Shown: one piece after another, positions 16,901 through 52,618 of the stretch | How positions within the stretch are numbered: the first letter of the stretch is position 1 | How the letters are laid out: each line of letters opens with the position of its first letter | NCBI GenBank assembly: GCA_036898135.1 | Contig: CM072513.1 | Coordinates: forward strand, 11,754,102-11,818,101 | From: Oncomelania hupensis | Taxonomy: Eukaryota; Mollusca; Gastropoda; Littorinimorpha; Pomatiopsidae | Direction of reading: 5' to 3' | DNA length: 64,000 nucleotides | Translations under genes and position numbers: made by a program | The notes under the pieces: generated by a model | The model's input: only the letters and a program-made list of their open reading frames with translations | Database searches by the model: none | What the model was told of the DNA's origin: nothing

Positions 16901-19900
16901 TGGTCAAGTTCACTTCAAAGTACCTATACAAAAAGACTTTGAACAGCTCATGACCTTGACCTTGGAGTGACGTTGACCAAATTTGCAAAGTATGTGTGCC
17001 TCATTGATATCTATCAATCATGTATCAAAGAATCATAAGTTCAATATTAATCTTTTTTTCCAGTGAAATTTTGTGAACAATTTTCTTTTTTTAAACTAAA
17101 ATTTGATGACCCTGTGACCTTGACCTTGAAGTGGTCATTCATTCACTGATCATTTTCGAGGTCTCATAGGTTTACACCATCTTATAAAGTTTGGTTGTGA
17201 TAGTTGAAATAGGCTCTGAATACATAACAACTTTAAAGTTTTTACAGATAGCAGACGTCAGACACAGATGCACGGACGGACCTTTTTTTTTCTATATTAT
17301 TTTTAGACTATTTAGGAGTCATCTAGCACAGATTTGCGACAAATTTGGACTTTTTGTGGTTTGGGTGAGTACATAGACTTACACTGCTATGCATGTGAGT
17401 CAATATATATTAATTAAATAATAATCAATTATCAAATTTAAAAAAAAACAAAAAAACACAGAATCCACATATATCTCATTAATATGCATTCACAACAAAT
17501 ACAATTCTAACACATTTTATAGGTATCATAATACATGTCTTGTAGTAATATTATATATATACCTAATAAGATTGTGTGTATGTAATTAATTGGATTTTTT
17601 TCTTTTTTGTGTCACTCATAAGCAGTGATGCACAAGTTGCCCGGACCCCGGACATTGACCGCTTGATTTTTTTAATGTCCGATTGTGAAACCTCAAGGCG
17701 GACACCTTGTCCGATTAAAACGATGGTGAGTCGGACACGTGTCCGATAGTTTTCGCGTATTTTGCATAGATGGCGAAATGTTTATTCCTCGCTAGACGGA
17801 AAACCAAACGTCGTCTGCATGCTGAAACGTATACATGCCTTATCTCCCTTGTCATCGCCTGCGTGGGATTGCTATTTTTATCCCGAGTCACAAAGCAACA
17901 CAGCCAACCAGCGCCCTTGAAACATATACAGTTTTGTTTTAGTCAATCGGTGCTCGCGACTTGAGTTTACGTTGGATCTGTGTTGGCGTTGTACTTGTAC
18001 TTTTGGTAAGCCAAACATTCGATCGAAATTATCGGAAATGCCTGCGAAAAAAAGACTGAAGGCGGATAAAAAACAAATCTCAATCATCGTCTTATTTGCG
18101 GGTAATTCAGCTCCCAGCACAACAAATTACTACACAAGCTGGATCATTACGGCATACGAGGCACCATCCACACCTGGCTCACAAACTTCCTGACCAAGCG
18201 CCATATGAGAGTGGTTCTGGATGGAGAGGCATCAGAGGAAGTAGCTGTCGAATCCGGAGTCCCCCAAGGCACAGTGATGGGTCCTTTACTCTTCCTCTGC
18301 CACATCAACGACCTGCCGGACACAGTAAAATCAACAGTGCGACTCTTCGCAGATGACTGCCTACTCTACAGAGAGATCCGCTCCTTCCAGGATCACATCA
18401 CACTCCAATCAGACCTCAAAGAACTAGAGAGATGGGCCAAGCAGTGGGGAATGCGATTTAATGCGCAGAAGTGCTATGTTCTCTCCACCAGACACAAGTC
18501 ACAACACTTCTATAGCCTTGGAAACACTATACTCCAACAGACTGATACTACCCCCTACCTAGGCGTCCAAATCTCTGCGGACCTGAAATGGGCTAACCAC
18601 ATCACAAGCGCCTGCAAGAAAGCTGGATCCACACTGGGCTTCCTACGCCGAAATCTCAGGAACTGTCCACAAGAGTGCCGACGCCTAGCCTACATCGCAC
18701 TTGTTAGATCCACTCTCGAGTATGCCGCAGTGGTGTGGGATCCTTACCTCCAACAAGACATCGACAAGCTGGAACGCATCCAACGCCAGGCTGCACGGTT
18801 CATTATGAGAGACTACAGATCCCGGGACCCAGGATGCATTGGCAGGATGCTTCACGAGCTCCACCTCCCACTACTTGCAGAACGGCGCCAACAACTCAGG
18901 CTGACCATGCTCTACAAGATAACCAGAGGACTAGTTCCTGCTCTCCCTCCCAACACCTTCCTTACTGCTGCCAAGAACAAACGGAAAATCCGCCCCACCA
19001 CCTTTAAAGGATATGACACACAGAACATCATAGAGAGGCAGATAAACAACAACAACACATGCTTTATTTTACCACCCTCATCATCAGATCTCTACAGAAA
19101 CTCCTTCTTCGTAAAAACAGTAGTGGAATGGAATAGCCTTCCCGATGACATCATCAACCTGCCCTCACCTAGCTCCTTCTCCTCTGCAATCGGGAGGTAC
19201 AGGGATGCTGACAAGTTCTAATAGAGTCAACATAATAGAACAGTGATTTTAAACTTTTAATTGTACATACATATCACCAGGCTTCCACAAGAGGAGCCCT
19301 TTTAAGAATATAATTAAATAAAATCATAACTAAAATAGGTAATATGAAGTTAGTACAAAAAGAACTATGAGTATGAAGCATAAATTTTTTTTTTTCTTTT
19401 GTAAATCAAATTAATTAGCGCGCACACACCACCACCACGTTAATAGCCATCTATGGCTCCTGTGGTGTTTTCTGCCAACAACATCATCGGCAGTATCCAG
19501 ATCCAGAAAAGAAGCAGAGCCTACACGATCTGTGGAGGATTTTTCCGATGCCGATGGTCGCGAGGCCGAGAAACCGTCAACTTCGAGTAAGCCTACTAGT
19601 ACTCGTGTTGATCGCGTTTTTCAGAAGGCGTAACATTTGACGATGAAAAAAATGCCATGTTCTGTATGGTATTTAAAAGTTCTGGTGTGGCGAAAAACTC
19701 GTTTACTCGCGGCTGCTTTAACTTTAAAAAAAAAAAAGTGCATTGGAAGATCATTTGATTTGACTACCACTAGTCACAAACTAGCAATCCAAGTGCCCAA
19801 AAAGCAACAAAATGAAGAGGCTTGTGAGGATCTAATGTTGACAAATCAGGAGGAGGCAATGATCACCACAGCATGAGCTGTAAACTGGCTAATAAAAGAA

Positions 19901-22900
19901 AATCTGCCTCTCATGAAATTTGGCTCTGTTATGCAGCTTTTGAAAGACAGTAACGCAGAAAGCAAGAGAAAACGCTACATTTTAAAGAATTGAACTTTCA
20001 CTGTTTCGAAGTGCCTCTTTACTGTTCAGTATTACCAAATAAACAACAAGACTTTTTGGCAACAATGCCAGTGTCCTATTACTTTTTTGTGTTCAGGACA
20101 TCATGTCCTATTGTTTTTTTGTGTTCAGGACATCATGTCCTATTAGGGTCCCAAAACATGTGCATTACTGCATAAGCCCGTGAAATTCTTCTCATTGCCA
20201 GTTTGCCAGCTGCACAAGCAGCGCCAATCAGGAAAAGAGGGACAGGAAGTATAGTGCATGCTGGGTGTATTGGTGCTTCTGGCGCTCACCAATTCAAGGA
20301 CATGAGAGTCAAAATCGTTTAAAGTTTGTGCTTTGGAATGCATACATACTGAGACTAGGCCACAGTTTATATATTTCCATCTTTGTTAATACATACAGTA
20401 TATATGGATGACTGTCCAGAGTTTTACGCAGTTAGCCCTGTTTTACCTTAAGAAAGAGTTAAAAAATAAACTGGAGAGCTCGGTTTTATCTGACTCACTC
20501 GTTCTATTATTTTTATCTTCTCTTTCTTATCCGAAGGAGTAATAACTTTAGTACTTTGAGCAGTATTGCTGGAAAAACTGGAGTGTGTTTGTTCAAACAG
20601 CTTAATTAAACTTAGAAGGTATTCGCTTTCTTTACGCTGGACTTGTCAACTTCTCCCTCCTCTATTCAGTCATCCCTTGAAGATCACATTGTAACCTTGC
20701 CTTAATCCATACACTGAAAACTATTAGTACAGAGGGCAGGACAGAAACACTGCTTGTGGTAACTGAACCACCCCTCCCAAAGCAGTTGCCTCATGTACAA
20801 GTCTGACCTCATTAGTCCACTAAGTACACACACACACACACCCACACAGCCGAGGGTACACAGTATTATCATGACTTTCCTGTTGTGCTGACAATGGGTC
20901 ATATTTCGTCCCCCTTTTTAAGTACTTTTAAGTGTTTGAACACTAACCCTAACCCAGCCCTAACCCTAACGGATCGTTGTTCTGATGTCAAAACAAGTAG
21001 ATCTGTCAAAACAAGTTATGTAGATGTTCACACACACACACACTACACAGCCATGACAACTGTATTAGCCAGTCAACAATTCTATAGTGGAAGTTGTGTT
21101 TTCTCTTAAACTTTCACTTTACATACTAATCAGAACTTGGCAAATAAATTTACTGTAGCCCAATCGGTCTAACACTTTACAACTAATTAAACCATTTCAG
21201 TTCTATTTTGATTAATTAATTGATTGATTGATCAGTTCTATTTGTACCTTCTTATATAACTTTTTTTTTCTTTCTAAAATGGCAATCAACGAAGAGGGCA
21301 AAAGGCTGACAGCCTATGATGTCAACACTACTATACTGACTATACTGTGGGTTCAGGCACTAAATAGAATATACCCAATGTTTAGCGGCATTTCGTAAGA
21401 GACAACTAACAGGGGTGATGACAGCACGGCATCACTGGGTGAAAGTCTTCTACACAGAAGTCACCGGCCAAAACGGAAGAACCTAACGCTGCTATAGGTT
21501 CAATGACCACGTCCTCGGGGCCAAGGCGTGAATTTCGGCTGTGGCCAATAGCCTGGAGAGGATTAAGCCCCAACAAGTCTTTCTTGCCCTAGACACACCG
21601 TATGATGAAAATAACCACTCTCTACACCGGATCGGTTGTCACCCGGGTCCCCAATGACCGTGCCTTTCTTTGGCCACCAGGACAGAGGTGATAAGTGAGT
21701 TACTGATGGACAACTTAGCAAGATCTGCACGAGAGACAACATCATCATAGGAACCTAGAATGTCAAGACCCTTACTGCGGAGGAAAAATTAGTAGAACTG
21801 GCCCACAAAATGGACAACACTCGATGGCAAGGCATAGTGCAGGGATGCAGAAGAAGAGGGAGACAGAAAAAGAGGTGGGAGGACAACATTCGAAAATGGA
21901 TTGGCTTGACACTGAGCGAAGCGACGAGGATTGCTGAGGACAGAGAAAGATGGAGGAGGCTGGTTAAATGATCATCTGTGGTGGTATAGGATAGAATGGG
22001 ATAGGACTATACTATACTATACTACACTATACTATGCTACTATACTATACTATATTATGCTCATATATACTACACTATACTATACTATTCTAATATTTCT
22101 ATATTATACTATTTATCAAAATACTAAATCTTATATATTTTCCATCTCCTTATTCCGCAGGTTACACTTTAACTTCAAACAAAACTTACACGATGCTTCC
22201 TTAGATGACAATCTTCAGACACTAGATCGTTATGTACATCAACTATCAGCACGATCAATTCAAATTTCCTGTCAGATAGATCTGCCATCTTGATAAAAGG
22301 CCTGTATGGTCTTCTGCATTTCTGGTGGGCATACATCTTCATCATTATTTTGTTAACCTGCAAGTGTGTTTGCGCATGCATGTAATCGCTTTGAGCTGTC
22401 TGGAATGTGCTGTTGTTGTTGTTATTATACATTATACAAGGCAACATTATATAACTGTATAAAGCAGAAAAAAAGAGACACTATGACTACCTGGCCTACA
22501 TTTCGACAGGACAATTTTGATGGTTAGCAGCTAACAACTGTTAGGACTTGATTGCAAGCATGCAAGGTATGTCACACACAATAAACTACTTGCTATGACG
22601 GCAACACAAAGCAGCTGTAGTATCTTTCACTGGGAACACCTTGATGTGTGGCTACATGTACTGTTCTGCATGCGAACCATCCACCTATTTACTGTCTACT
22701 CCATCACTGCCAGCCACACTACGTTTTTCATCTTGATTCCATCCATACGTGGAGGAATTTCCCTTTGTTTATCAAGCTAAGGAACCTCAGTGGCTTGATA
22801 AAAATGGGAGAGAACAGGTTTTAACTTATAATAATTCTCTTGTTATATTCTCTCTTTGTCCTTCTTATTTTACTGGCCTTTAAAAAAAATCTTTTGACGA

Positions 22901-52183: not shown

Positions 52184-52618
52184 CATACTAGTGATTCATA
52201 CACACACATTCACATCAAACTTTGACAACACTTGCTAAGCATAGCGTGACAAATTTGGAGCTTTGTGATTATTTGATAGTGCAGAAGGTAAACCAATGAA
52301 CAACAAACTAACTTTTCAGTCGCACTAACTTTTAACAAACAAACATCACACTAACTTTTTCAGGCGTGTTTTCAGCACCAATTGCAACATTTAGGACGCA
52401 CTTCTCAGGCCTAACCAGCGATCCTAAGGCGTGATTTTGAGAGTCGAAGGTGTGATTACGCCCAATCTCGGCGTAATAGGGAGCCCTGTGTCCTATTGTT
52501 TACTTGCAAAGGACATTCCAAACATTGAAAGGGACGCAGATTTTAATTCAGCATCTTGTCATCTAAGCATACACTTTTAGTCTTTGTCTGCCATTGTAAT
52601 AAAAAATGCTGTAAATAG

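Follow-up and report, generated by a model that had tools for sequence, protein, structure and literature searches.

Transposons of the hAT superfamily usually duplicate 8 base pairs (bp) of target DNA (PMC12730594). For example, 8-bp duplications have been described for the Ac, Buster and Tip families (PMC3942097), and for Hermes, with T in the second and A in the seventh position (PMC8721813), while hATm duplicates 8 or 9 bp (PMC6004678). In addition, hAT5 and hAT6 are named groups credited to Kapitonov and Jurka (2007; for hAT6, Repbase Reports 7:1192), to which hAT7 has been added (PMC12730594); hAT5 has also been described elsewhere (PMC9004415). Here, five transposons (A to E) are analysed in a stretch of 64,000 nucleotides from the gastropod Oncomelania hupensis (contig CM072513.1, positions 11,754,102 to 11,818,101; hereafter the window). 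A first-pass annotation had described them as hAT-like elements with duplications of an unusual length, 6 bp. This length is indeed unusual in comparison with Ac, hobo and Hermes, but it has already been catalogued as hAT6, beside hAT5 and hAT7, and because hAT6 is a named group a 6-bp hAT element is not in itself new (PMC12730594). We consider, with a probability of about 0.92, that A–E are non-autonomous, internally deleted members of hAT families, moved in trans by hAT transposases that attack the target strands approximately 6 bp apart. What is new is a family close to C, here called H, which yields both 5-bp and 6-bp duplications from near-identical copies.

All five elements were found again in the window, each with CAG...CTG termini and exact 6-bp flanking repeats, as had been claimed for them. 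On the plus strand, these are the non-autonomous hAT-like element A (17623..20170; target-site duplication CATAAG at 17617-17622 and 20171-20176), the non-autonomous, C-related element B (36147..37786; ATTAAT at 36141-36146 and 37787-37792), the internally deleted element D (39954..41138; ATATAT, within an AT run), the internally deleted hAT element C (46141..47086; TTCATT at 46135-46140 and 47087-47092) and element E, a miniature inverted-repeat transposable element of 426 bp (51758..52183; CATACT at 51752-51757 and 52184-52189). In A, the inverted ends differ at one of 12 bases; they are identical over 12 bases in C, 14 in B and in E, and 15 in D. The form CAGNGNTG, earlier proposed for these ends, fits five of the ten (one in A, both in B, both in E) but none in C or D. 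The eight-base register does fail in A, B, C and E, as had been noted, with four to seven mismatches when their flanks are compared at 7 and 8 bp. The duplication length of D is ambiguous by itself because its AT run fits 6 bp exactly and 8 bp with one mismatch. A scan of the whole window, made independently of the earlier list, detected 155 inverted pairs within 6 kb that match exactly over 11 or more bases; after complexity filtering, flanking repeats of 5–11 bp were present only at B, C, D and E, and their length was always 6. When CAG-ended pairs matching at 10 of 12 bases were scanned, four had an exact 6-bp repeat (A, B, C and E; D was lost to filtering for low complexity). Twelve shuffled windows averaged 0.083 such pairs each, and at 8 bp the same scan found none in the window. 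A looser scan gave five exact 6-bp cases against 0.25 per shuffle (40 shuffles), and ten one-mismatch cases against 4.7 expected. A candidate sixth CAG element, F (39061-39946), has imperfect CAGGG(A/T)TCAG ends, CATATA/TATATA flanks with one mismatch and, by eye, a tRNA-like stretch near 39317-39390; D is inserted beside it. F is not claimed, because its flanks are imperfect and one-mismatch 6-bp flanks are common in the scan.

The tabulation of duplication length for each family, proposed in the first-pass annotation as a check, was carried out in the window's own genome (1.45 Gb). Forty candidate places were scored for each family, with identities of 97–100% for the 5' part of A, 96–100% for E and 85–98% for most rows of D. 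Both ends were read in 20 copies of A, chosen from the overlap of the 5' and 3' lists, and in 10 copies each of B and C, taken from plus-strand rows having both parts. For D, the 20 best rows with both ends aligned were used, less one copy with a repeated flank pair; for E, two of 29 non-window loci lacked a recognisable end, so that 27 were counted, among which loci L036 and L037 appear to mirror each other and could represent a single event entered twice. The duplication was exactly 6 bp in 14 of the 20 A copies (three exact 7, one exact 5, one 6 with a mismatch, one with none), in nine of the 10 B copies (one exact 7), in seven of the 10 C copies (two exact 5, and one AT run fitting 6, 8 and 10), in 14 of the 19 D copies (one AAT run fitting 6 and 9, one 6 with a mismatch, three with none) and in 22 of the 27 E copies (one exact 7, three 6 with a mismatch, one with none). 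Pooled, these non-window copies show exact 6 in 66/86, exact 7 in five and exact 5, the length that gives hAT5 its description, in three; a clean 8-bp duplication, as in Ac, Buster and Tip, is present in 0/86. As a control, flanks were swapped between copies of one family, and a 6-bp match was then seen in 2 of 1642 pairs and an 8-bp match in none. The 66 exact 6-bp sites have a weakly palindromic preference, with A-T-A-T at bases 2–5, and a central TA occurs in 21 of them against 6.4 expected from flanking positions.

It could be argued that the length of 6 bp arose artificially, through assembly or the trimming of 8-bp duplications, or that it reflects a host factor acting on all hAT elements of this snail. 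No point in support of this argument was found, and the same length of 6 recurs in distinct insertions at many sites. In fact, the same genome contains a family of approximately 600 bp that carries TAGAGCTGGGTACC at one end, which is also the 3' end of the Ac-like hAT loci L001, L004 and L005; this 14-mer occurs at 741 exact places. Among eight loci of this family (L203–L210), an exact 8-bp duplication is present at four, two of which have common flanks, leaving three distinct events, and the other four gave no clear reading. (For an earlier control of this kind, with the Ac-like loci L001–L005, the 5' ends were not found.) Families making 8-bp and 6-bp duplications thus coexist, and therefore neither the host nor the assembly is the cause of the 6-bp length; we regard such an artefact or host effect as the least credible of the alternatives. 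Further evidence on length comes from the window itself, where a diverged inverted duplication (45864-46140 with 47087-47108, an arm that holds C, and 51582-52322, an arm that holds E) flanks and enters the NUSAP1 region. The flanks of C, joined through one TTCATT, align over 120 bp (86.7% identity, E-value 6.7e-34) with a paralogous empty site at 51582..51699 on the minus strand, which contains TTCATT only once. When duplication lengths of 0–12 were assumed in this alignment, the score was highest at 6 (168; next 164). Reciprocally, the other arm (45864..46140, plus strand) aligns across the insertion point of E over 296 bp (72%, E-value 3.5e-31). Here the best score over the same range was at 10 rather than 6 and the length was not discriminated, so this empty site is consistent with the 6-bp reading and not proof of it. 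A joined-flank search for empty sites of A, B and D found none in the window.

The assignment to hAT, also made in the first-pass annotation, holds on protein evidence. C has a frame (46410..46643, plus strand) encoding the hAT C-terminal dimerisation domain (PF05699, E-value 7e-10, 39 bits against a cut-off of 21.4), and its ten protein relatives all have this domain, two of them being named '52 kDa repressor of the inhibitor of the protein kinase'. D retains an N-terminal transposase remnant (40232..40843, plus strand) in two in-phase frames split by one stop. The relatives of this remnant carry PF27073, and three (P0008, P0013 and P0016) also carry PF05699; those that are named come from the gastropods Littorina saxatilis, Haliotis asinina and Elysia marginata. 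The Elysia marginata protein, P0008, is a hAT transposase filed as 'connexin 27.5', an apparent misannotation. Its predicted model (588 amino acids, modest confidence) has Hermes as best fold match, with an RNase H-like DDE core like that of Hermes. More directly, a copy in the snail genome (L186) has D's own ends, the duplication GATAAG and a frame of 467 amino acids, 90% identical to P0013, in which the C-terminal portion of a hAT transposase, with the dimerisation domain, is preserved. A second D-like family is represented by L190 (a frame of 556 amino acids, 47% identical to P0013; duplication CATACT), and no duplication was seen in its sister copy L189. Therefore, hAT transposase sequence and 6-bp duplications, the combination by which hAT6 is described, occur together in D (L186, L190) and likewise in C through its domain and its seven exact 6-bp copies. 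A, B and E, in which the dimerisation domain was not found, agree with hAT6 in duplication length only. Neither copies with 8-bp duplications nor non-hAT transposases, named earlier as what would speak against the hAT assignment, were found for these families. Searches for relatives in viral contigs (with the B/C 3' motif, P0008 and P0019), of P0002 in genome contigs and in phage records (with window positions 17000-24000) gave none; NCBIfam gave no match to five peptides, and sequence searches of the PDB gave no hAT match. Another possibility is that the likeness of A–E to hAT is confined to their ends and that they come from a different superfamily that duplicates 6 bp, for example IS3EU or Dada. 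IS3EU does duplicate 6 bp, but its ends in fungal families exceed 30 bp and read TAYGG...CCRTA (PMC12730594), unlike the CAG ends with 12–15-bp inverted repeats found here. The dimerisation domain in C and in the relatives of D contradicts such an origin for those two elements, and the predicted Hermes-like fold of P0008 also argues against it; this possibility appears very improbable.

A further alternative, in line with the one lineage of altered strand-transfer spacing suggested in the first-pass annotation, is that A–E all descend from one hAT lineage, namely hAT6, through a single change of spacing. hAT5 and hAT6 have been placed within one lineage together with Blackjack (PMC12730594), and several ties exist between the elements. 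At the 5' end, B and C agree in 28 of 38 positions, and near their 3' ends they have in common a block of 34 bp (94% identity, GGGGAGCATGCCCCCGGACC core; 37652-37685 in B and 46942-46975 in C) that follows the dimerisation domain on its 3' side in 23 of 25 C-type loci. The only ties of E to D are the type of end and the motif AATACGG. On the other hand, the C-type and D-type protein profiles align (probability 98.2) with only 16% identity, and A has yet another zinc finger, a C17orf113-like remnant placed approximately at 19635..19760 on the plus strand (PF25431, E-value 4e-4, 20.6 bits, below the curated cut-off of 29.5). Moreover, spacing shifts inside the clade, as H, a relative of C, makes mostly 5-bp duplications. 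A single lineage with one change is a tentative alternative, somewhat short of an even chance; the families are counted here as A, the related B and C, D, and E.

Family H has the ends CAGGGCCGGAYCCAGG...CAGGTCCGGCCCTG. Of 30 fetched dimerisation-domain loci 25 are C-type, and 15 of these have both H ends; after removal of one duplicate, 14 copies were read. Eight have exact 5-bp duplications, three exact 6-bp, one a CA run fitting 5, 7 and 9, and two none. The 6-bp copies form no separate group in the family tree (supports mostly low), and each is 96–98% identical to 5-bp copies. H has much of the C interior, at 83–92% nucleotide identity (87–90% in the dimerisation domain). The distribution of 5s and 6s differs between H and pooled A–E (Fisher's exact test, p = 8e-7), and against C alone the difference is not significant (p = 0.07). 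These close relatives, one mostly 5 and the other mostly 6, each make some of the other's length. The earlier view of a hAT spacing altered to 6 bp stands for most copies, but 6 is not an invariant value, given the minority of 5s and 7s and the behaviour of H. Because H mixes both lengths in near-identical copies, the labels hAT5 and hAT6 do not separate cleanly here. We lean slightly towards a strand-transfer distance that is loose and evolvable in this branch, with hAT5 and hAT6 as modes of one tunable geometry and not separate lineages. A literature search on variable hAT duplication length returned no title on a 5/6 mixture; subscription papers lay mostly outside it and no Repbase Reports were found, so the search speaks only weakly for the mixture being unreported.

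As for mechanism, the two active sites of the transposase would attack the target strands about 6 bp apart, against 8 in Ac, hobo and Hermes, and repair of the gaps would produce the 6-bp duplication. For recognition, the enzyme probably relies on the short CAG end and on arrays of subterminal motifs specific to each family, and its preferred target is probably A/T-rich and weakly palindromic, with TA in the middle. A, B and E would have been mobilised in trans.

The interiors and surroundings of the elements modify the first description in two respects. Element A was correctly delimited, with its ends, but its family measures approximately 1.16 kb elsewhere in the genome, and the extra length of the 2548-bp window copy is due to a nested insert of approximately 1.39 kb from a non-LTR (non-long terminal repeat) retrotransposon, whose reverse transcriptase frame (371 amino acids; 18106..19221, plus strand; RVT_1, E-value 1.2e-18) is foreign to a hAT element. 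More non-LTR reverse transcriptase fragments (RVT_1) are present on the minus strand at 33302-33667 and 42322-42903. Three elements had been placed in NUSAP1 introns. Pfam supports NUSAP at 45061-45351 and at 49930-50244, and a further match, at 47097-47501, falls below threshold. C lies between the two supported stretches, in agreement with the claim, but neither B nor D does, both being upstream of the earlier one, and the likely exons adjoining them had no Pfam match.

Compared with described systems, the elements of this snail resemble hAT6 most closely in its description, a hAT transposase with 6-bp duplications in an animal genome (PMC12730594), and differ from it in comprising several diverged families with a minority of 5- and 7-bp duplications. 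The likeness to hAT5 consists in short duplications, mostly of 5 bp in H; A–E are mostly 6 bp, and H mixes both. With Ac, Buster and Tip they have in common the dimerisation domain, short inverted ends and cut-and-paste duplications, the difference being 8 bp there and 6 here (PMC3942097). Hermes (PDB 4d1q, 6dww) is the best match to the predicted fold of the D-type relative, and a BED-type finger and subterminal motifs may be further likenesses by analogy; its 8-bp duplications with T2/A7 (PMC8721813) differ from the 6 bp with A-T-A-T seen here. IS3EU is alike in its 6-bp duplications and differs in its longer, distinct ends and its other transposase (PMC12730594). These comparisons are of significance because target-duplication length serves transposon classification and depends on how the paired active sites are arranged. 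A single genome here holds hAT-type families at 8 bp, at 6 bp and with a 5/6 mixture, and close relatives differ in their usual length. This advises caution in naming groups by duplication length alone, and provides a natural series in which to look for the parts of a hAT transposase that determine the spacing.

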